Part shown: piece after piece, positions 23,383 through 53,659 of the stretch
Position numbering within the stretch: position 1 is the stretch's first letter
How the letters are laid out: the number at the start of each line of letters is the position of its first letter
Source of the DNA: Amycolatopsis coloradensis
GTDB taxonomy: Bacteria; Actinomycetota; Actinomycetes; Mycobacteriales; Pseudonocardiaceae
Length of the DNA: 64,000 bases
NCBI RefSeq assembly: GCF_037997115.1
Contig: NZ_CP150484.1
Span: 694,121-758,120, forward strand
Reading direction: 5' to 3'
The notes under the pieces: model-generated
The model's input: only the letters and a program-made list of their open reading frames with translations
What the model was told of the DNA's origin: nothing
Database searches by the model: none
Position numbers and translations under genes: made by a program

Positions 23383-23430
23383 CTCGTGAGTGGCTAGGAC
23401 GGTTAGAACCGTCTCCTAGCCACTCACGAG
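23383..23430. terminator. bidirectional terminator between lipase and mmsA
   Basis: The arm CTCGTGAGTGGCTAGGACGG (23383-23402, extending to 23404) pairs with 23407-23430 with a two-base bulge and a two-base loop. It fills the convergent gap. The CGTGAGTGG arm is shared with the hairpin at 53371-53418. Confidence 0.8.
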
Positions 23431-42987: not shown

Positions 42988-44007
42988 TCAGAGCAGCGCG
43001 ACCGCGGCCGCGTACTGCGGCACCAGATGCGCCCCCAGCGAAGCCTTCATCTCCGACATCTTCTTCCCGAACACCACCTGCGGCCGCCCGGTTTCCACCG
43101 CCCACCGCACCGTTTCGCCGTAGAAGTGGAAGTACAGATTGGGCCGCCCGCCGAGTTCCGGCGGCAGCGCCGCCCAGTGGCGGGCGATCGGCAACGCCGG
43201 GTGGTCGAGAAGGGTCGCGACGGCGATCGCCCGGCCCGTCGCCGTCTCACGGTATTCGATGACGTGCACGTCCGGCTGTCGCAGGAGGGCACCCACGTAC
43301 CCCACGAACGCCGGGAGCGGCACGATCGGCACGTCGTGGTGTTTGGATTCGTTGTGCCGCAGCAGTTCCGCGATCTCGACCGGATCGGCCTCGGCACCCG
43401 GCCGCACGCGCACCTCGATCGACGGGTCGGCATCGAAGGTCCGGAAGATCTTGCGCAGGTTCTGTTTGCGTTTCCTGGCCAGCGAGTTCATCCAGTCGTC
43501 CCGGCTCGAGAACGGCGAGACGTCGAGGATCGCGACGTCCTCGGTCCGCCGCACCATCTTCAGCCCGCCGCGGACACTGTCCACTCCGGACTCACCGACC
43601 TGGCGCACCAGCAGCGCGCGCAGGCCGAAACCGAGTTCCGCGCGCATGGCCGGGACGAACGAGTCCAGCAGCATGCCGACGCCGCCGTCCCCGTCCGCGC
43701 CGTCGAACCACCAGCCCGGCATCGCCCCCGAGCCGGGGGACCGCACGTCGAGCCCGCCGAACCGACCGCGTCCCATCGGCCGGGCGAACCGGTGCCGCCG
43801 GGTGAGTCCGGTGACCCAAGCGGAGCTGACCACGCCCCGCGGTTCCCCGTCTTCGAGCAGGACCGTGACCGGCTGCTCGGTGCGCGCCGCCCACGCCTGG
43901 GTGGTGAGCACCTCCCAGCTCCAGTCCGCCCGCAGACCGGCCTTGGCCCGCAGCGATTTCCAGTACGCGGGCTCCGGATCACGGCGCGGGTCCAGCACGT
44001 CGATCAC
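42988..44007 (-). CDS. GNAT/FemAB-like acyltransferase, paralogue 1
   Basis: 339 residues from GTG 44005-44007, overlapping the upstream gene's stop (GTGA). An N-terminal half and a C-terminal GNAT-type domain: WMNSLARKRKQNLRKIFRTF basic region, then LYFHFYGETVRWAVETG and FGKKMSEMKASLGAHLVP, which match the C-terminal signature of FemAB-like/peptidogalycan (PF13480/PF04339-type) transferases. Such enzymes transfer an aminoacyl or acyl group to a cell-surface or secondary-metabolite acceptor. Third of three tandem paralogues; donor and acceptor unknown. Confidence 0.75.
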   Translation of the reverse strand: MIDVLDPRRDPEPAYWKSLRAKAGLRADWSWEVLTTQAWAARTEQPVTVLLEDGEPRGVVSSAWVTGLTRRHRFARPMGRGRFGGLDVRSPGSGAMPGWWFDGADGDGGVGMLLDSFVPAMRAELGFGLRALLVRQVGESGVDSVRGGLKMVRRTEDVAILDVSPFSSRDDWMNSLARKRKQNLRKIFRTFDADPSIEVRVRPGAEADPVEIAELLRHNESKHHDVPIVPLPAFVGYVGALLRQPDVHVIEYRETATGRAIAVATLLDHPALPIARHWAALPPELGGRPNLYFHFYGETVRWAVETGRPQVVFGKKMSEMKASLGAHLVPQYAAAVALL

Positions 44008-45047
44008 CAGCGCGTCACCGGCCTCGGCACGATGACCCCGAGCAGCGGGACCGGCTGGAAACCGAGTGTCGCCTTGAGCTCGGTCAGCCCCCGGCCCATC
44101 GACAGCGACTTCCGGTTGCCGTCGATCATGTAGCGCACGTTCCGCACGACAGCCTCGAAGTAGAGGTGCTTCGGCCGTCCCTCCTCCGGGGCCAGCGCGG
44201 CCCAATGCTGGTGCAGCGGCGCGACGGGATGGTCGAGCACGTTGGTGAACGCGAGCAGCCTGCCCTCGCCGTCATGGTAGGTCGAGGTGATCACGTCCGG
44301 CCTGCGCACGAGTTCCCCGAGGTATTCGGCGGTGACCGGACCGCGCCGGTCGAACTTCACCGGTCCCATCCGTTCACGATGCTCCCGCAGCATGGTGGCC
44401 AGCTCCAGCGCGTCGAGGTCGGTGCGGGCGGCCTCGGTGCGGACGATCACGTCCGGGTCGGCGGCGATCTTCTTCGACTGACCGCGCAGGCTCAGCCGCC
44501 TGCTCCGGCGCAGGGACGCCAGCCATCCGTCGACGTCGACGAACCGGTTCTCCAGCACCGACGTCGGCATCGTGTCGCGCACGGGCCTGCCCCGGCCGGT
44601 CAGCATGTCGAGCGACTCAGGCTCGACGGTCCGGTAGAGGACGCCCAGGCACCCCGGCCCGGTGAAGCGGCACACGGCGCGCTCGAACCGGCGCATGATC
44701 TCCCGCCGGTCGGCGACGTCGACACCGTCCGCGAACAGCCACGGCGGGTATCCGGAAAGCCACGCGTGCTGCACCTCGGCCCAACGCGGCCCGAGCCGCG
44801 CCACGCCGCGCACGGCGCCGGGACGATCCGGGGAGACCGGGGCGCACAGCATCGCCAGTACCGCGGCGACGATCTCACCCCCGTCCCTGATCACGGTGAG
44901 CACGTTCGGGCTGGGGGAAAAACGCGACTCCACCCGCAGCAATCCGTAGTCCCACGGGACCGGGGCCTGCTGCGCGGCGAGGAATCCCGCCCAGTCCTCG
45001 GGTTCCGGATCGATCCGCGGGTCGAGCACCCGCACTTCCCAGGTCAT
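44004..45047 (-). CDS. GNAT/FemAB-like acyltransferase, paralogue 2
   Basis: 347 residues beginning MTWEVRVLDPRIDPEPEDW, with ATG 45045-45047 overlapping the previous stop (ATGA). Shares with paralogue 3 the block PRWAEVQHAWLSGYPPWLF, RRFERAVCRFTGPGCLGVLYR and with all three the C-terminal LYFEAVVRNVRYMIDG plus GRGLTELKATLGF. The conserved glycine and lysine near the end fit acyl-CoA or aminoacyl-tRNA-type binding of the GNAT fold, but no donor can be assigned. Confidence 0.75.
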   Translation of the reverse strand: MTWEVRVLDPRIDPEPEDWAGFLAAQQAPVPWDYGLLRVESRFSPSPNVLTVIRDGGEIVAAVLAMLCAPVSPDRPGAVRGVARLGPRWAEVQHAWLSGYPPWLFADGVDVADRREIMRRFERAVCRFTGPGCLGVLYRTVEPESLDMLTGRGRPVRDTMPTSVLENRFVDVDGWLASLRRSRRLSLRGQSKKIAADPDVIVRTEAARTDLDALELATMLREHRERMGPVKFDRRGPVTAEYLGELVRRPDVITSTYHDGEGRLLAFTNVLDHPVAPLHQHWAALAPEEGRPKHLYFEAVVRNVRYMIDGNRKSLSMGRGLTELKATLGFQPVPLLGVIVPRPVTRW

Positions 45048-46147
45048 CGGCCCAGCACCGGTCTCGGCACGGCGACCGACACCAGGGACCTGGTGCCGAA
45101 GCCGAGCGGGGTCTTGTTCTCCAGCATCGCACGGCCGGCGGTCAGTTCGGGGCGCCGATGCGTGATCATGTGCTCCACTCCCCTGGCGTAAAAGTCGACA
45201 TAGAGCCCTTTTCGTCCGCCTCCCGCGCTCGGCAGCGCGGCCCACTGGTGCAGCGCGCAGCCGCCTTCGGCGTCGAACACCGTGCCGAATCCCAGCAGGC
45301 GCCCGGATCCGTCGCGGTAGGTACGGGTGATGACGTCCGGACGACGGATGAGCGCGTCCAGATAGGACGGTGCGATCGGGCTGCGGGTGTCCATGTGCAG
45401 TCCGCCGAACCTTGACCGCTGTCCTCCGGCCCAGGCGCGATCGTCCTGCCTGGAGCGGTGGGCGTTGAGCAGCACGGCGAGTTCGTGGCAGTCCAGGTCC
45501 CGGCGGGCCGACTCCGCCTCGGTGCGCAGGTCCCCATCTTCACGCAGTTCGTGCAGTGTCTTGCGGATCCCGTCGTCGAGCGACCGTTCCCAGTCGTCCA
45601 CAGTGGAGTAGTCGTTGGTCAATACGGCGGCCGGGTCGATCTCGCGGGTCATCCGACCGCGGCCTTCCAGCGCCGGAAGGAGTTCCGGATTCATCGCACG
45701 GTAGATCAAGCCCAGCAGTCCCGGGCCGAGGTGGGCGCACAGTGCCCGTTCGAACCGGCGGACCACTTCCCGCCGCTCGGTCTCGTCCAGTCGCTCGTCG
45801 AGCACCCCGGCGGGATACCCGCTGAGCTGCCAGAGGTAGGCCTCCGCCCAGCGAGGGCGGAACCGCCCACCCAGGACGGACAGCGGCGCGAACTCACCCG
45901 CTCGCCAGCTCCGGCACACCATCACGGTGAACGCGCCGACGATCGTCCCGTTCCGGCGGAGCACCGCGAGTACCGCGGGGTTCTTCGCCATCCAGGCTTC
46001 CCTGCGCAGGACCTCGTACTCCCACACCGGCCACAACCGCGCCCGCCGCAGGAACCCGCTCCAGCCTTCGGGTTCGGCCGCGCTTCGCGGATCGAGCACC
46101 TCGACCTCGAACGTGGTGCTCCGTGCCGCCACCTTCATGGTCCCCAT
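45044..46147 (-). CDS. GNAT/FemAB-like acyltransferase, paralogue 3
   Basis: 367 residues; ATG 46145-46147 overlaps the stop of the PaaK-like gene by one base (TGATG); an ATG three codons later is possible. Shares PRWAEAYLWQLSGYPAGVL, RRFERALCAHLGPGLLGLIYR and the C-terminal LYVDFYARGVEHMITH and GRAMLENKTPLGF with the paralogues. These tandem copies suggest successive modification of one acceptor, as FemX/A/B add residues one by one in staphylococci; this is an analogy only. Confidence 0.75.
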   Translation of the reverse strand: MGTMKVAARSTTFEVEVLDPRSAAEPEGWSGFLRRARLWPVWEYEVLRREAWMAKNPAVLAVLRRNGTIVGAFTVMVCRSWRAGEFAPLSVLGGRFRPRWAEAYLWQLSGYPAGVLDERLDETERREVVRRFERALCAHLGPGLLGLIYRAMNPELLPALEGRGRMTREIDPAAVLTNDYSTVDDWERSLDDGIRKTLHELREDGDLRTEAESARRDLDCHELAVLLNAHRSRQDDRAWAGGQRSRFGGLHMDTRSPIAPSYLDALIRRPDVITRTYRDGSGRLLGFGTVFDAEGGCALHQWAALPSAGGGRKGLYVDFYARGVEHMITHRRPELTAGRAMLENKTPLGFGTRSLVSVAVPRPVLGR

Positions 46148-46923
46148 CACGTGAGCACGACCGGTGTCCCGTGTCGCGGGCACGGCGCGATCTCACCACG
46201 GACGCCGCCCGCCGGGAGCACGTCCACGAACCGCGGGGAATCCTGCCGCAGCAGTGTGAACGCGAGACCGCCCGGCGTCGCGCGCGCGTAGACGCGGGGC
46301 CAGTCGAGGTGCCATCGGCCGCATTCCTCGATCGCGCCCAGGTAGCCCAGCGCCGGATCGTGGAGCACTCCGTACGGGCCGGAGTCCATTGTGTCCAGTT
46401 CTCGTCGCGGTACGGATTCGACCCGGTACGCACGGTCTTCGGGCAGCGCCGCCGCGAAGACGGCGAGCTGCTTGTCGTCACCGACCGCGAGCACGCGGCG
46501 ACCGCGACGGAGGTGGGACGACAGTTCCGCCAGGACACTCGGCGCCGGTACGTCAGGATCCACCACGCAGCAACGAACTCCACGCGGAAGGTCCACCGGT
46601 GCCCGCGCCTCGTCCCCGCCGAGCACGACGACCAGTGCGTCTCCGGTCACCGAACGTGCCTTACGCAGCACGGGACCCAGCCCACGGCTCGGCTCGATCC
46701 GTTGGGTGCCACCGGCGAGCGGTACCAGGTCGACGATCTTGTGCACCGCCTCGGCCAGCGGCGCCGCGCCGGAATCCGTCCCGGTGCGACCGGGCACCAG
46801 CACGGGATCCGTTCTGCCGTCGAGTGCCCAGCGCTCCCGGTAGAACGGCACCGTCGCGAAGGCCGACCGCACGGACCGCCGGTAGGCAGCCCGCCAGGCA
46901 GCATTCACCCCCACAGTCCACAT
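46147..46923 (-). CDS. unrecognised protein with PaaK-like N-terminal motif
   Basis: 258 residues from ATG 46921-46923 (first of the minus-strand operon; no clear ribosome-binding site). The N-terminal RRSVRSAFATVPFYRERW is the hallmark start of phenylacetate-CoA-ligase-type adenylating enzymes (R..PFYRE), and the C-terminal ECGRWHLDW, CPRHGTPVVL resembles their end, but the length is about half of a functional ligase and no AMP-binding P-loop (SSGTTG type) is present. It may be a degenerate adenylation-like protein that positions a substrate. Function unknown. Confidence 0.6.
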   Translation of the reverse strand: MWTVGVNAAWRAAYRRSVRSAFATVPFYRERWALDGRTDPVLVPGRTGTDSGAAPLAEAVHKIVDLVPLAGGTQRIEPSRGLGPVLRKARSVTGDALVVVLGGDEARAPVDLPRGVRCCVVDPDVPAPSVLAELSSHLRRGRRVLAVGDDKQLAVFAAALPEDRAYRVESVPRRELDTMDSGPYGVLHDPALGYLGAIEECGRWHLDWPRVYARATPGGLAFTLLRQDSPRFVDVLPAGGVRGEIAPCPRHGTPVVLT

Positions 46924-47194
46924 GGCGCGCAAGCCTGCGTCATCGACGCCGGTTTGGGAATACCCCGCGCCGGGTTCATCCGGTTTTCGGCCGACTTCCC
47001 ACCTTTTCGACTGAGCTGAAAGGACGAACTTGCGGATTCCGCTGGCGGGAACAAAGCGAGTCTGCCTATAACACGGGAACTTTCGAGCCGGCACGACCTG
47101 CCGGACGCCTGGGGCCAAGGGGACTCATGAACCGTGAAAACACAACGCGTGACGCTACGAACACGATAGCGCACTCACCGCAGGGATACGACAG

Positions 47195-49429
47195 ATGAGC
47201 TGGCCGGCCCCCGGCCCCGCGGAAAGCGGACTCACCGTAGTCGTCCCGTGCTTCAACGAAGTCGACAACGTCGAGCCCTCCTATCAGGAGATCGTCGCCG
47301 AGTTGGGAAATCTCCCACTCGAACTGCTCTATGTGGACGATGGGAGTACCGACGGGACGCTGGACGTCATCCGGGCACTCGCGCACACCGACCCCCGGGT
47401 GCGGTACGTGTCCTTCACCAGGAACTTCGGCTTCGAGGCGGCCTTTTCCGCCGGTTATCGGTACGCGGGGAAACCGTGGCTCCTGCACATCGACGCCGAC
47501 CAGCAGTTCCCAGCCTCCGAAGCGGGGAAATTGATCACCGCCGCCGAGGCGGGCAACGACGCCGTTTTCGGTGTTCGCACCAATAGGCAAGATCCCTTAC
47601 CAAGACGCTGGGGTACCGCCGCCTTCCATTTCCTCGGCCGCCGCGTGCTGCGCATCGAGATCCCGCCCGGCGCGACGGCGTTCCGCCTGGTGCGCACGGA
47701 GCTCGCGCGCAAGATCGTCGATCTCCGGCTGGGCACCCCGTACTTCCTCGCCACCGTGCCGAGACTGACCAGCCGCTACACCACCGTCCAGGTGGCACAC
47801 CGGGCCCGTGAGCGCGGTGAGTCCAAAGTGGGCTTCGGTTTCCTTTCCTCGCACGCCATCGAGCTGTTCGTCGGATTCACCCGGCGGCTGACGACGGTGG
47901 CTTCGAGCACGGCGATGCTGACCGCCGGGGTCTCGGTACTCGCCGGGATCGCGGCCGCCACCGGGCTTCTCGGACTGACCGCCGCGTCGGCGCTGACGTT
48001 CGTCCTGTTCTCCGTACTGCTCACGGTGCTCGCGTTGACCGTCCGCTACCTGGTCGTGGTCGGCGCCGGACAGCCGCGGCCACGGCAGTTCTACATCAGG
48101 GAAGCCAACTTCCCGGTCGACGAGGACGACCGGCTCTACGCCTCGGCCATGGCCGAGATCCATCCTGGGGAAAGGCAAGCGGGAGTGAAGAAAACCGAAG
48201 ACACGGCGGCCGCACGGAGCCTGGTGATCCTGGGCGGCGCCGACGGTTCGGTCAGCACGTACCACCGGGCGCGGGAACTCGGTTTCCGCACCATCTGCGT
48301 GGACGTCCGCACGAGCGCGCCCGCCGTGGCGCTGGCCGACGAGTTCGTCCAGGTCAGCGTCCGCGCGCCGGAGCAGATCGCGGCGGCACTCGAAGGACGG
48401 GACGACATCGCCGGGGTGCTCTGTCCGGCCAGTGACGTCGGGCTGCCCGCGCTCGCCTGGCTCACCCGGCACTGGGGCCTGCCGGACCCGCTGCCCGAGG
48501 CCGCCGTCGCCGCTTCGGTCGACAAGTCCGTCTTCCGCGAACTCTGTGACAGGCTGCGCCTGCCGACTTACCGGAGTGTCGGCGGGAAACCGGGCCCGGA
48601 TCTCGCGCTCGCCGCGCAGCAGCTGCGGTTTCCCACGCTGGTGAAACCGGTCGACTCCTCCGGCAGCCGCGGTGTCGTCTCGTGCGCGAGCCCCGGCGGC
48701 CTGACCACCGCTTTCTCCGACTCGCTCGCGTTCTCACCGTCCGGCAAGCTGGTCGTCGAGGAACATCTCGACGGCTCGCACTACACGATCGAAGCGCTCG
48801 TGGTCGACGGCCGGATCGTGTTCCACGCGGTCACCCGCCGCACGCTGACCCCGCCGCCGTTCTTCGTGACGGCGTCCCACCTGTTGCCCGCCGGGCTGCC
48901 GCCGGTGGTCGACCGCGCGCTGCCGGTGATGCTGGCCGCGTTGTGCGCCGAACTCGGTTACCGCACCGGGCCGCTGACGCTCGACGCGGTACTCGGCCGT
49001 GACGGGAAGTTCTACCTGATCGAGATGGGCGCCCGGATGGGCGGGAACGGCCTGGCCGAGGCGATCGAGCACAGCACCGGCGTCGACCTGATCGCCGCGG
49101 GGATCGCCGCCGCGACCGGCGGTGAGGTCGTGCTCTCGCCGCGCGCCCCGCGACCGACGCTCATCCACATCCTCGCCTCCGACCGCGGCGGCCGGATCGT
49201 GCGCATCGAAGGCGTCGACGAGGTCCGCGCCATGCCCGCGGTGCACAACCTGGAACTGTTCGCGGAGCAGGACTCCTACGTCAAACCGTACGAGCAGGCG
49301 GGCTACAAGATGGGGTACGCCGTGCTTTCCGCGCCGACCGTGCCCGAGGTGCTCGCGGCGGAGGACGAGTTGCGTGGCACGCTGAAGTTCCTGCTCGACG
49401 AGCAGGGAATGGCGGTACCGCTCCCTTGA
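47195..49429 (+). CDS. GT2 polyprenyl-phosphate glycosyltransferase fused to ATP-grasp ligase
   Basis: 744 residues. Residues 12-230 are a GT2 glycosyltransferase of the dolichol-phosphate-mannose/ArnC type (VVVPCFNEVDNV, YVDDGSTDGT, the metal motif DAD at 100-102). Two TM helices follow (about 237-260 and 265-290). From about 343 there is an ATP-grasp ligase: a preATP-grasp Rossmann segment (LVILGGADG), K484 in LVKPVDSSGSRG, E522/E523 in VVEEHLDGSHY and the metal site E610 in LIEMGARMGGNG. The fusion joins lipid-linked sugar transfer and ATP-dependent C-N (or C-O) ligation. First gene of the plus-strand operon. Confidence 0.85.
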   Translation: MSWPAPGPAESGLTVVVPCFNEVDNVEPSYQEIVAELGNLPLELLYVDDGSTDGTLDVIRALAHTDPRVRYVSFTRNFGFEAAFSAGYRYAGKPWLLHIDADQQFPASEAGKLITAAEAGNDAVFGVRTNRQDPLPRRWGTAAFHFLGRRVLRIEIPPGATAFRLVRTELARKIVDLRLGTPYFLATVPRLTSRYTTVQVAHRARERGESKVGFGFLSSHAIELFVGFTRRLTTVASSTAMLTAGVSVLAGIAAATGLLGLTAASALTFVLFSVLLTVLALTVRYLVVVGAGQPRPRQFYIREANFPVDEDDRLYASAMAEIHPGERQAGVKKTEDTAAARSLVILGGADGSVSTYHRARELGFRTICVDVRTSAPAVALADEFVQVSVRAPEQIAAALEGRDDIAGVLCPASDVGLPALAWLTRHWGLPDPLPEAAVAASVDKSVFRELCDRLRLPTYRSVGGKPGPDLALAAQQLRFPTLVKPVDSSGSRGVVSCASPGGLTTAFSDSLAFSPSGKLVVEEHLDGSHYTIEALVVDGRIVFHAVTRRTLTPPPFFVTASHLLPAGLPPVVDRALPVMLAALCAELGYRTGPLTLDAVLGRDGKFYLIEMGARMGGNGLAEAIEHSTGVDLIAAGIAAATGGEVVLSPRAPRPTLIHILASDRGGRIVRIEGVDEVRAMPAVHNLELFAEQDSYVKPYEQAGYKMGYAVLSAPTVPEVLAAEDELRGTLKFLLDEQGMAVPLP

Positions 49430-50703
49430 CCGGAACCTCGCTCACCGGTGCCGGCACCGCGTCGATCGCGGCGCCGAAGCGGTCGATGGTGCTCCGGCTG
49501 CTCGCCGGGCGTGGCGTCTTCCGGCTGGCGATCCAGGCGATGGGCCTGGTGCTGGTCACCGCGTGGGGTGCGCACGACTACGGCCGGTTCGCCACCGCGC
49601 TCGGGCTGATGACCTGGCTCAACTTCGTGCCGTCCGCGGCGGAGAAGTCGGCGTTGAAATGCCTGCCCCGGCTGCGGATTACGCGGGACGCGGTCGCGGC
49701 GCTGGCCGTCCGCGTCGCCGTCGTCCCGGTTCTGGTGGTCCTGGCGGCGATGGCGGTCGCGCTGATCGTCGCACCGGACTCGGACGCCGCGCTGTACCTG
49801 ACGGCCGCGGGCTGGTCGATCTCCGGTGGCCTCCTGATGACGGTCTCCGGCCTGCACCGCTTCACCGGTAGGTCCACTTTGGACGCTCTGGCGTTCACCG
49901 CGGGAGCACTGGTGGTCGGCGCCGTGACGGTGGGCACCTGGTTCGTCCGCTGGCCGCCGTTGACCCACCTCGGCCTGCTGCTCGGCGGGATCCTGCTCAT
50001 CCTCGGTTTCTCCGCGGCGCTGCTGCCGAGGAAGTGGCTGCGCGTCCAACGGATCGAGGGACACCGGCTCCTGCCCGCGTTCGGCCGGACCACCGTGCTG
50101 CTCGGGATGACCGAGGTGCTGGACGTCCTCGCGACGTCGACGGTGTTCGGGGTGCTGGCACTGGCGGGCCGGACCGTCGACAGTGGACCGTTCTACGTCG
50201 CCTTGCTGGCCGGCAGCGCGTTCTGCTCGCTGCTGTTCTATCAGCTCCGGGTGCACCAGCCGTCGATTTCGGCGCGGCTGCGCGGAAGCGGGGCGGCGGC
50301 GGGCAGGGCCCGCGCGGTCGCACTGCTGAAGCTGGTCGAACGGGGCTCGCTCGCGTTCCTCGTCCTGGTGGGCCTCGCCTTCGTGATCCCGGTGGCCCGC
50401 CCGGTGCTGACCGCTGAAGACACCGTCGGCGCGTACGTGGTCCTCGGTGTCTTCGTCCTGGTCGAGACGGTGTTGTTCGCTGTCCAGCTCTACGCGGGCT
50501 TCCTGATCGAGAACACCAACAGCAAGGTCCTCACGCTCACCGCGTCGGCGTCGATCGCCGGTCTGCTCGCCACCCCGTCGGCCGCCGCCGCGCTCGTGCC
50601 GGCGATGGGGCCGGTCGGCGGGTTCGCCGCACTCGTCTTCGCGATCGGCGCGCGGGCGATCGTCCTCCGGCGGCTGCTGCGCCGCCACCACCCCGAACTC
50701 TGA
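49426..50703 (+). CDS. flippase-like polytopic membrane protein
   Basis: 425 residues with about 10-12 TM helices, no signal peptide. The start is TTG 49426 overlapping the upstream stop (TTGA); ATG 49486 is an alternative. The pattern (GHDYGRFATALGLMTWLNFV-like N-terminus, given as AWGAHDYGRFATAL; basic loops; C-terminal ARAIVLRRLLRRHH) resembles MOP/Wzx-type polysaccharide or lipid-linked oligosaccharide flippases, which would fit a glycosyltransferase upstream. Family assignment is tentative. Confidence 0.7.
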   Translation: MTGTSLTGAGTASIAAPKRSMVLRLLAGRGVFRLAIQAMGLVLVTAWGAHDYGRFATALGLMTWLNFVPSAAEKSALKCLPRLRITRDAVAALAVRVAVVPVLVVLAAMAVALIVAPDSDAALYLTAAGWSISGGLLMTVSGLHRFTGRSTLDALAFTAGALVVGAVTVGTWFVRWPPLTHLGLLLGGILLILGFSAALLPRKWLRVQRIEGHRLLPAFGRTTVLLGMTEVLDVLATSTVFGVLALAGRTVDSGPFYVALLAGSAFCSLLFYQLRVHQPSISARLRGSGAAAGRARAVALLKLVERGSLAFLVLVGLAFVIPVARPVLTAEDTVGAYVVLGVFVLVETVLFAVQLYAGFLIENTNSKVLTLTASASIAGLLATPSAAAALVPAMGPVGGFAALVFAIGARAIVLRRLLRRHHPEL

Positions 50704-50723
50704 ACGTCGCACTGGAGAAGGAA

Positions 50724-52526
50724 ATGTACGTACTGGGAATCAGCAGGGTCCACGACTCGGCGGCCGCGCTCGTGCGCGACGGCGAGATCATCGCGTTCGC
50801 CGAAGAAGAACGCTTCACCCGGAAGAAGCACGACGGGGACTTCCCCGCGGAGGCGATCAAGTTCTGCCTGGAGCGCGGCGGGATCACCCTCGCCGACGTC
50901 GACCACGTCGCCTACTACTGGCAGCGCTGGCGCGAAGGCATCCACGCGGCGAAGGTGTTCGCGAAGTACTTCCCGGCGACGCTGGAGGTCTTCCGCAACC
51001 AGAACGGTGACGAGGGCGGCTCCTCGGCGGGAATGGTGGAGACGTTCAAGACCGGTGGCGGCAAAGGCGTCGACGACTACCACGTCGGCGGCGCGGTGCT
51101 CGCGCACATCAAGCGGTCCTTCACCCTCGAACGCGACGTGAAGGAGGCCGTGGGCTGGACCGGCCCGACGAAGTTCAAGACGCATCTGGTCGACCACCAC
51201 AAGGCGCACGCCGCCAGCGGGTACTTCATCTCGCCGTGGGAAGAGTCGGCGGTGCTCACCTTCGACGGTATCGGCAGCGACGGCACCGCGACCTATCTCG
51301 GCCATGGCAAGGGAAACCGGATCATCGACATCCGGCGGATCAAGTTCCCGCACTCGCTGGGCGCGATGTACGCCGGCGTCACCGGCTACCTCGGCTTCTA
51401 CCCCACCCGTGACGAAGGCAAGATCATGGGGCTGGCGCCGCTCGGCGACGCCACCTACGTCGACGCGTTCAAACAGCTGATCCACCTCGACGACGACGGC
51501 GGATACGAGCTCGATCTGAGCTTCTTCGGCCACCACCGCACCGGCAAGCACGTGATGTCGAAGAAGTTCACCGACCTGTTCGGCCCGGCGCGGCCCAAGA
51601 CCAGGGTCACCGCGGAGAACCCGGTGCCGCAGCACTACTGCGACGTCGCCTACGCGTTGCAGGTCACCCTGGAGGAAGCCGGACTGCACATCGCGCGCTG
51701 GCTGCAGCGGGAAACCGGGTCGCGCCGGCTGTGCGTCGCGGGCGGTGTCGCGCTGAACAGCGTGATGAACGGGCGGATCCTGCTGGAGACCCCGTTCGAG
51801 GACTTCTTCGCCCAGCCCGCGGCCGCCGACGACGGCTGCGCACTCGGTTCGGCGCTGGAGGTGTCGGTCGGCAAGTACGGCAAGCCGCGTCCTCGTGACG
51901 GCTACACCTACACCGGCCCGGACTACACCGAGGCGGAGATGGAACTGGCGCTGCAGGACGCCGGGGTCCGCTACACCAAGGTCGACGACATCGCCGCGCA
52001 CACGGCGAAGAAGATCTCCGAGGGCAAGATCATCGGCTGGGTGCAGGGCCGGATGGAATGCGGGCCGCGTGCGCTCGGCAACCGCTCGCTGGTGGCCGAC
52101 CCGCGCGACCCCGATTCGAAGACGCGGATGAACGAGAAGGTCAAGCACCGCGAGGCCTTCCGGCCGTTCGCGCCGTCGTGCCTGGCGGAACGCGCGGGCG
52201 ACTGGTTCGTCAGCGACTACCCGTCGCCGGTGATGCTGCTGGTGTTCGACGTCCTGCCGGACAAACGCGACGAGGTCCCGGCCATCACCCACGTCGACGG
52301 GACGGCCCGCGTGCAGACGGTGACCGAATCGGACAACCCGCTGTACTACCGGATGATCAGCGAGTTCGAGAAGATCACCGGGGTGCCGATGGTGGTCAAC
52401 ACCTCGTTCAACGACAACAACGAACCGATCGTCGCCAGCCCGGCCGACGCGGTGGCCTGCTACCTCAAGACCGACGTCGACGCGCTCGCCCTCGGGCCGT
52501 TCTGGGCAGAGAAGGACGACCTGTGA
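50724..52526 (+). CDS. carbamoyltransferase (NodU/CmcH family)
   Basis: 600 residues with the full family set: HDSAA (10-14), VDHHKAHAASGYF (157-168 region), GGVALN (340-345), GRMECGPRALGNRS (442-455), REAFRPFAPS (476-485) and NTSFN near the C-terminus. These enzymes first make carbamoyl-adenylate from carbamoyl phosphate and ATP, then carbamoylate a hydroxyl of a sugar or antibiotic (as NodU, CmcH, TobZ and NovN do). GGAGA precedes the ATG. Its presence strongly implies that this locus makes a carbamoylated glycan or small molecule. Confidence 0.95.
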   Translation: MYVLGISRVHDSAAALVRDGEIIAFAEEERFTRKKHDGDFPAEAIKFCLERGGITLADVDHVAYYWQRWREGIHAAKVFAKYFPATLEVFRNQNGDEGGSSAGMVETFKTGGGKGVDDYHVGGAVLAHIKRSFTLERDVKEAVGWTGPTKFKTHLVDHHKAHAASGYFISPWEESAVLTFDGIGSDGTATYLGHGKGNRIIDIRRIKFPHSLGAMYAGVTGYLGFYPTRDEGKIMGLAPLGDATYVDAFKQLIHLDDDGGYELDLSFFGHHRTGKHVMSKKFTDLFGPARPKTRVTAENPVPQHYCDVAYALQVTLEEAGLHIARWLQRETGSRRLCVAGGVALNSVMNGRILLETPFEDFFAQPAAADDGCALGSALEVSVGKYGKPRPRDGYTYTGPDYTEAEMELALQDAGVRYTKVDDIAAHTAKKISEGKIIGWVQGRMECGPRALGNRSLVADPRDPDSKTRMNEKVKHREAFRPFAPSCLAERAGDWFVSDYPSPVMLLVFDVLPDKRDEVPAITHVDGTARVQTVTESDNPLYYRMISEFEKITGVPMVVNTSFNDNNEPIVASPADAVACYLKTDVDALALGPFWAEKDDL

Positions 52527-53215
52527 CCGCGACACTGCCCGACACCGACGGCTGGATTCCCGCGCTCTACCGGCGGCGGAAATGGCTGTGGCTGGTGCCC
52601 GCCGTTCCGGCCGTGGTGACCACGCTGCTGATCATGGTGATCCTGCCGCCGGACCAGACGCTGGACAACGTCGTCGACTGGGCGTTCAAGCTGTGCCCGT
52701 TCGTGTTCGCGGTCGCCACGGTGGCGCTCTTCCCGCGCACCAAATGGGGTCCGGCGCTGATCGTGCTCGCGGTGTTCGTCTATATGTCCTATTTGGACAC
52801 CGAGCTGATCATGCGGATCCAGGCGTTCGCCAGGAACGCCGCCACCGACGAGGACGCCTTCCAGCCGGTGTACCAGTTCGAACTGTTCATCGTGACGTTC
52901 ATCGTCCTGTTCGGACTGATGGCGTACCGGCTGGGCGGCGGCCGGACGGCGAACGTGCTCAAGACCGGGATCGCGGCGATCCTCGTGGTCATCTCGGGCG
53001 CGAACGACCTGACGTTCTGGGCGCTCAACGACGTCTGGGCCGCCGGGACGAAACCGACCGAGCTGAAGTGGGCGTCGCACATGATCGTGTTCCTCGGCGG
53101 ACCGCCGAGCGTTCCGGTCGCGGTGATGTTCATGCTGGTGCACCTGGTGCTGGCGGCGATCGTGGTGGCGCTGCCGGTGGGCCGGTGGGTGGACCGGGCA
53201 CTGGGGCTCACGTGA
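52523..53215 (+). CDS. six-TM membrane protein of unknown function
   Basis: 230 residues from GTG 52523, overlapping the carbamoyltransferase stop (GTGA). Six hydrophobic helices (LWLVPAVPAVVTTLLIMVIL; FVFAVATVALF; ALIVLAVFVYM; FIVTFIVLFGLMA; TGIAAILVVIS; VPVAVMFMLVHLVLAAIVVAL) with short loops, one bearing acidic residues (NAATDEDAFQP). It is the last gene of the operon. It might be an envelope enzyme or transporter accessory; no motif recognised. Confidence 0.75.
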   Translation: MTATLPDTDGWIPALYRRRKWLWLVPAVPAVVTTLLIMVILPPDQTLDNVVDWAFKLCPFVFAVATVALFPRTKWGPALIVLAVFVYMSYLDTELIMRIQAFARNAATDEDAFQPVYQFELFIVTFIVLFGLMAYRLGGGRTANVLKTGIAAILVVISGANDLTFWALNDVWAAGTKPTELKWASHMIVFLGGPPSVPVAVMFMLVHLVLAAIVVALPVGRWVDRALGLT

Positions 53216-53659
53216 GTCGGCGCGTGTCGGGCTCTATTGACGGGTAAGACATACGTGGCGCGCCGGAGTTGGACTCGCCAAAGAGACCCGACACGTTCAT
53301 ATCTGGCCATAAAGGACACTTTTCCCGGTGAAAGTGCCCGATTTAGGCGATTTGCATGGCTTCGCAAAGCGGTCGTGAGTGACAAGGAGGGTCAGAACGC
53401 TACTTGCCACTCACGACCCTCATCGAAACCGCACATCTAGTCAACAAACAGACATTCTACCGCCGACATGTGTCCCTTGTGGACGCTCAAGACACAGCCA
53501 ACTCCTGCCGGCCAGTCCAGAACCACACCACGAAGACCGCCTCTCCCACTTTTCGGCAAAGGGCCCTTCACCGCAGGGACTCGACCACGACACATTGCCC
53601 CCACCTCTCAATAACTCGTAAGTCAAAGGTGGCGTGTCGCAACAGGCCTGCCCCACCGC
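53216..53659. other. 444-bp gene-free convergent gap with several inverted repeats
   Basis: Between the six-TM gene and hemW there is no credible gene. Inverted repeats: CGTGTCGGG/CCCGACACG (53223-53231 with 53287-53295), a weak GGACACTTTT/AAAGTGCC hairpin near 53314-53338, and the near-perfect GGTCGTGAGTGACAAG arm (53371-53386 with 53403-53418). The stretch 53420-53640 is less GC-rich than the genes around it and shows no motif. It may be a graveyard of terminators or an insertion point at the cluster boundary. Confidence 0.6.
53371..53418. terminator. GTGAGTGG-family hairpin
   Basis: The 16-nt arm GGTCGTGAGTGACAAG (53371-53386) pairs with 53403-53418 with one mismatch across a 16-nt loop. 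It shares the CGTGAGTGG arm with the terminator at 23383-23430. Probably terminates the carbamoyltransferase operon. Confidence 0.6.

Follow-up and report, generated by a model that had tools for sequence, protein, structure and literature searches.

Positions 42,988 to 53,215 of a stretch of 64,000 nucleotides from the 9.06-Mb, one-contig genome of Amycolatopsis coloradensis (NCBI RefSeq assembly GCF_037997115.1, contig NZ_CP150484.1; the whole stretch is hereafter called the window) hold a cassette of eight genes that is one conserved unit, far beyond chance, and that is gained or lost whole. The minus strand encodes three GNAT-like transferases (GNAT-A, -B and -C) and a short protein; the plus strand encodes a GT2 glycosyltransferase fused to an ATP-grasp domain, a flippase-like protein, a carbamoyltransferase and a protein with six transmembrane segments (6-TM). 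These eight genes and their divergent arrangement had been proposed in an earlier note made from the DNA sequence alone, and all eight were found as reading frames and translated. We put at about one half the probability that the product of the cassette is an exported polyprenyl-linked glycoconjugate carrying amino acids. As judged from sequence, every chemical step appears to have a known relative, and the gene combination seems to match no named system in our searches, which covered the open-access literature; the set, which many soil actinobacteria share, has the look of a pathway not yet described.

Conservation and insertion of the cassette

Homologous loci were collected with a GT2–ATP-grasp profile, and the best 80 of the 140 relatives found were analysed (L002–L081), GT2 and ATP-grasp being present in them by construction. 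Fifteen of the 80 lack the 6-TM gene and were left out, giving 65 loci for counting, 27 of the window's type and 38 related; genes run off the end of the contig or locus in L005, L033, L039, L040, L044, L045, L052 and L053. The window-type loci come from Amycolatopsis, the genus to which the cassette's closest named relatives belong, and from Saccharomonospora, Prauserella, Goodfellowiella, Actinokineospora, Actinophytocola and one actinomycete metagenome-assembled genome (L018). The GNAT, short protein, GT2, ATP-grasp, carbamoyltransferase and 6-TM genes are each present in 27/27 of them, and the flippase-like gene in 26/27. Because the GT2–ATP-grasp protein had served as bait, an independent co-occurrence test was run with the short protein and the 6-TM protein. 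Among 200 genomes of the family the former was found in 27 and the latter in 26, and all 26 hold both, on the same contig and at most 7,461 bp apart; the corresponding hypergeometric figure of 9e-32 ignores relatedness and overstates the case, since related genomes are not independent. The single locus proposed earlier is borne out in two respects: its genes co-occur outside the source genome, in these 27 loci and in the 26/26 genomes of the independent sample, and its parts are not assigned by homologues to different known systems, the relatives keeping the core and swapping the surrounding tailoring genes. In genome G488 the short protein is partial and the 6-TM protein finds no match. Another Pseudonocardiaceae genome (G309) has two cassettes, one on contig 165 (L163) with a LysRS-like match and no carbamoyltransferase match in the stretch read, the other on contig 230 with three GNATs, the short protein and the 6-TM gene. 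Two Acrocarpospora loci (L030 and L057) each contain the 6-TM, ATP-grasp and GT2 genes in duplicate, one set accompanied by a carbamoyltransferase.

The extent of the unit was read from its insertion site. HemW was sought in 40 genomes of the genus and 30 loci were fetched, 17 of which, being too divergent or containing other sequence, do not enter the count. Five of the 30 show a clean empty junction, at which the TetR gene (at about 42.75 kb in the window) directly meets HemW (53.66 kb); eight others, among them the window's genome, have the 6-TM end of the cassette beside HemW. Genomes without the cassette also have TetR, the siderophore-interacting protein, HemW and the sulfite reductase region. 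The 32-kb accessory insert envisaged in the earlier note was consequently rejected: only the eight-gene block is absent at the empty sites of these five close congeners, so the accessory piece is this block, about 10.4 kb long. One group of Amycolatopsis loci (L010–L014) carries the cassette among other neighbours.

The transferases and the short protein

GNAT-A (42,988..44,007), GNAT-B (44,004..45,047) and GNAT-C (45,044..46,138, with alternative start codons near its start at 46,138), all on the minus strand, are FemX-like transferases. The predicted structure of GNAT-B has the FemX-type double-GNAT fold, and in VIA-align its 22 best entries are all aminoacyl-tRNA-dependent enzymes, FemX/FemA/MprF-type proteins scoring 17.5–20.0 as against 15.7 or less for coenzyme A (CoA)-dependent GNATs. 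Lys 326 of the 348 residues of GNAT-B is invariant in 149/149 GNATs and may correspond to Lys305 of FemX, the reactive C-terminal lysine of the Weissella enzyme (PMC12945691), the aligned end ranges matching (345 with 326). The tree of these 149 sequences, to which only GNATs longer than 300 aa were admitted, contains four orthologue groups matching gene position; the A group, represented in every one of the 27 window-type loci, comprises 27 sequences (support 1.0) and is sister to GNATs of Nonomuraea/Actinomadura loci (support 0.996). Nine of the window-type loci have three GNATs and 18 have four (L002–L029), a difference that may reflect product variants.

The short protein (46,147..46,923, minus strand, 258 aa) has no Pfam family and carries two conserved Cys/His pairs, the invariant C200, H204, C247 and H250. 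The PaaK-like label proposed for it had to be given up: the AMP-binding domain that marks the adenylate-forming PaaK/CapK ligases was matched by none of 28 members, even with E allowed to reach 1, and the 28-row profile touches a PaaK structure over residues 17–44 only (E=0.51).

The plus-strand proteins

The GT2 half of the fusion protein (47,195..49,429) matches PF00535 (E=1.1e-28) and, among solved structures, is nearest ArnC and sll0501, followed by dolichol-phosphate mannose synthase; its catalytic domain is thus closest to the polyprenyl-phosphate GT2 group (ArnC/GtrB/Dpm1), and by analogy polyprenyl phosphate would be its acceptor. The second half matches PF13535 and PF18603 above cut-offs, which identifies an ATP-grasp fold with an L-amino-acid-ligase C-terminal domain, and its relatives in the PDB include the L-amino acid ligase BL00235 (PDB 3vot, E=7.4e-17). 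The cassette protein occurs in 14/36 genomes of the genus, fused in eight and as two genes in six. The next gene (49,426..50,703) encodes a multi-spanning membrane protein of 425 aa that, from its sequence, may at best be a distant flippase. The carbamoyltransferase (50,724..52,526) is a full-length member of the NodU/CmcH/TobZ family, with PF02543 at residues 3–378 and PF16861 at residues 428–597, and matches PDB entry 9s2t at E=3.9e-101, with GdmN and TobZ also among its matches; an identity with NodU itself was rejected, the score of 161.6 bits falling under the NCBIfam NodU equivalog cut-off of 1000. The window copy of the 6-TM protein (52,523..53,215) matches no Pfam family, its predicted model gave no usable structural match in the PDB, and among the 120 listed of its 310 homologues, the named ones are hypothetical or uncharacterised.

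The 6-TM family also occurs in a second kind of locus. Of 296 genomes sampled across the class, eight contain it, six of them distant and without the short protein; with E allowed up to 1e-6, no GNAT was matched in five of these six, and in the sixth one was matched on another contig. A different GT2 adjoins the 6-TM gene in all six distant loci (L157–L162, about 9–18 kb in each). L158, the one locus annotated, continues with genes for a HAD phosphatase, an NTP-transferase, two GT4s and a PF01943 flippase, a setting that speaks for a lipid-linked glycan.

Variable tailoring genes in related loci

Among the 65 loci, a carbamoyltransferase is present in 31, a BesD-family halogenase in 13 and a relative of lysyl-tRNA synthetase (LysRS) in 23, and the carbamoyltransferase shares no locus with either of the others. 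Carbamoylation, by which the earlier note had described the locus, is thus not what defines the system; the carbamoyltransferase itself is clear by family. All LysRS relatives lie in the 38 related loci, where five are complete, four run past the end of the locus and 14 have lost the catalytic part. The complete copies carry HVGN and KVSGS or KISGS, with PF01921 recognised in L079, and belong to class I; for the Streptomyces wuyuanensis copy, cut at the locus end, the whole genome shows an open frame of 556 aa. The relatives fall under the NCBIfam cut-offs and are therefore diverged paralogues. Distances were measured for seven copies, full-length or end-cut: the LysRS gene overlaps a GNAT gene or lies within 20 nt of it. 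The 14 reduced forms (L028, L039, L043, L046, L049–L051, L055, L059, L060, L063, L064, L071 and L077) keep the CxxC...CxxC zinc ribbon and the C-terminal domain (E of 8e-20 to 3e-38 with a cluster-copy profile) and sit after a GNAT on the same strand. Related GNATs are thus paired with LysRS both in full length and without its catalytic domain.

The BesD-family enzymes have an HWG motif in 13/13 loci, with PF23169 recognised in L045. An HxG in place of the HxD iron motif is what we take to be the mark of BesD/HalB radical halogenases. The copy in S. wuyuanensis (L053:9198–9950) is identical to HalB (PDB 7u6i) over 251/251 residues, and the genes around it suggest a native pathway for this lysine halogenase; HalB chlorinates free lysine, and chlorolysine is usable in translation (PMC8407142). 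On the most economical reading of these gene sets, the GNATs of loci with LysRS or halogenase would take lysine or modified lysine from tRNA. Lysine is also a possible target of the carbamoyltransferase, as an alternative to a sugar hydroxyl, because a NodU-like enzyme was recently reported to carbamoylate the lysine N-epsilon in a peptide (PMC13174530). Among the related loci of the main set, two types of epimerase-type genes are found (26/38 and 10/38), and four from Streptomyces have a UDP-glucose dehydrogenase, which likewise fits a glycan product.

Proposed pathway and alternative explanations

The proposal of an exported polyprenyl-linked glycoconjugate draws on the conservation of the unit, the nearest relatives of the GT2 and ATP-grasp halves, the fold of GNAT-B and its invariant lysine, the LysRS relatives beside GNATs in 23/38 related loci, the HalB copy, the four GNAT groups and the neighbours of the distant 6-TM genes. 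The reactions and the sequence in which they occur, like the sugar, the amino acids attached and the last acceptor, are inferred from the protein families, as follows. The GT2 half would load a sugar from its nucleoside diphosphate form onto polyprenyl phosphate, and the fused ATP-grasp half would couple an amino acid to that sugar or to a group on it. The three FemX-like transferases (four in many relatives), being distinct orthologue groups, would then add aminoacyl units from aminoacyl-tRNA, much as FemX, FemA and FemB extend lipid II. The carbamoyltransferase would cap a hydroxyl or amine, the lysine N-epsilon being one candidate; the flippase-like protein would carry the product across the membrane, where the 6-TM protein may handle or transfer it. 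To a broader proposal, a new actinobacterial pathway class, we give somewhat less than even odds, taking its five parts jointly: that a polyprenyl-linked sugar, rather than lipid II or phosphatidylglycerol, accepts successive aminoacyl-tRNA-dependent additions; that HalB-type enzymes in some lineages chlorinate lysine; that a dedicated LysRS charges it; that in other lineages LysRS, stripped to zinc ribbon and C-terminal domain, serves as a tRNA-delivery subunit; and that carbamoylation occurs in the window's lineage, the modules being exchangeable.

Lipid-linked glycosylation, ligation, aminoacyl transfer and translocation had all been put forward in the earlier note and fit the anatomy of the cassette, and the multi-spanning nature of the flippase-like protein stands, whereas its label finds little in sequence: Polysacc_synt was matched in 1/11 family members (E=0.031) and in the window copy not at all. 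Several further observations weigh against a lipid-linked, tRNA-using pathway. The cassette has neither a sugar-nucleotide gene nor a recognisable GT-C transferase; GNATs are missing from 7/38 related loci and the short protein from 11/38. A LysRS relative is found in 0/27 window-type loci and was not recovered from the window's own genome by a profile that, as a positive control, finds it in three other genomes, and tRNA use by GNAT-A, -B and -C is therefore something that we infer from fold, one residue and kin. The reduced LysRS searched alone against the PDB and NCBIfam does not recover LysRS, so its identity depends on profile, alignment and position. Finally, in Foldseek the first match of GNAT-B is FemX, with a tandem GNAT of acyl-CoA type, from the clavulanic acid pathway, at ranks 2–4.

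This last result would equally suit acyl-CoA-dependent GNATs, whose product would be an acylated, carbamoylated surface glycan or glycolipid made without tRNA, as would Acetyltransf_6, the most frequent Pfam match among the GNATs (21/34), and the CapK-type AMP-binding ligases of 24/38 related loci. CapK is found in 0/27 loci of the window's type, however, LysRS partners stand beside the GNATs in 23/38 related loci, and VIA-align places FemX/FemA/MprF-type enzymes above CoA-dependent GNATs; aminoacyl transfer is thus better supported than acyl transfer, and we regard the CoA-dependent route as improbable. A higher standing, although still that of an unlikely explanation, belongs to an antibiotic-like pathway yielding a secreted aminoacyl glycoside, in which the polyprenyl carrier would be only a scaffold or absent. 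GNAT-fold enzymes dependent on tRNA are known from the pathways to valanimycin, dehydrophos, pacidamycin and streptothricin-type compounds (PMC12945691, section 7); six Streptomyces loci have a regulator gene family of BTAD/SARP type and one of LuxR type; and presence in 14/36 genomes of the genus is patchy. Such a product is argued against by the polyprenyl-phosphate-type GT2, the flippase-like protein and the 6-TM protein, the last shared with a polysaccharide-like locus, and no nonribosomal peptide synthetase or polyketide synthase was recognised among the cassette proteins scanned. That two unrelated operons are neighbours by chance was rejected as very improbable: seven loci do have the GT2–ATP-grasp side without GNATs, and six genomes of the class have 6-TM and GT2 without the short protein, but both halves are present in 27/27 loci, the minus-strand short protein and plus-strand 6-TM gene are co-located in 26/26 genomes, and both halves are missing together at the empty sites.

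Relation to known systems

The lipid II extension by FemX, FemA and FemB resembles the proposed glycoconjugate pathway in the FemX-type double-GNAT fold, in having several non-redundant transferases and in its presumed polyprenyl-linked acceptor; it differs in that the acceptor sugar of the cassette apparently comes from an ArnC/Dpm1-type GT2 with fused ATP-grasp, and in the added carbamoyltransferase, flippase-like and 6-TM genes. Lysyl-phosphatidylglycerol synthesis by MprF/LysX likewise joins a GNAT-fold transferase to a paralogous LysRS, as in the related loci, and GNAT-B resembles the MprF structure; actinomycete fusions of this type with a dedicated LysRS are described in PMC2922099. In contrast, the LysRS of the related loci is class I (PF01921), unfused and often truncated, sugar and ligase genes lie alongside, and the window's type has no LysRS. 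The tRNA-dependent GNATs of natural-product pathways (VlmA, DhpH, DhpK, PacB and Orf11, PMC12945691, section 7; Sba18/Sbb17) differ in that the cassette has lipid-linked glycan machinery and that no peptide-synthetase context was seen in it. The undecaprenyl-phosphate-L-Ara4N pathway shares the ArnC/sll0501-like GT2 and a presumed flipped polyprenyl-phosphate sugar, whereas the cassette lacks ArnA, ArnB and ArnT and has ATP-grasp, GNAT and carbamoyltransferase genes. The HalB locus of S. wuyuanensis also holds GT2–ATP-grasp, 6-TM, flippase-like, GNAT and short-protein genes and a LysRS relative; HalB is absent from the window's type, which has a carbamoyltransferase instead.

Should the proposed pathway class be correct, tRNA-dependent chemistry would reach another lipid-linked sugar, beyond lipid II and phospholipids, the lysine halogenase HalB would gain a native context, and a tRNA synthetase would have shrunk, next to an aminoacyl transferase, to a remnant that binds tRNA. 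The pathway would include a membrane protein family without recognised fold, the 6-TM family, and its product could be sought by mass spectrometry, through carbamoyl or chlorine signatures, in many cultured actinomycetes.

Gene boundaries and flanking sequence

Gene starts were refined by comparison with homologues, and several were shortened. Four-base stop/start overlaps link GNAT-C to GNAT-B, GNAT-B to GNAT-A, the GT2–ATP-grasp gene to the flippase-like gene and the carbamoyltransferase gene to the 6-TM gene, and the other gaps are 8 nt (short protein to GNAT-C) and 20 nt (flippase-like protein to carbamoyltransferase), so that each half looks translationally coupled; the coupled or close spacing noted earlier for the plus strand, with two overlaps and one gap, is confirmed. 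The intergenic region that these boundaries leave between the divergent operons (46,924..47,194) presumably holds the promoters of both. Between the 6-TM stop and HemW lie 434 bp (53,223..53,656) that are absent from all seven other congeners with the cassette at this site, and within them is an imperfect palindrome of about 48 bp (53,371..53,418) with an 83% relative at 23,384..23,429.

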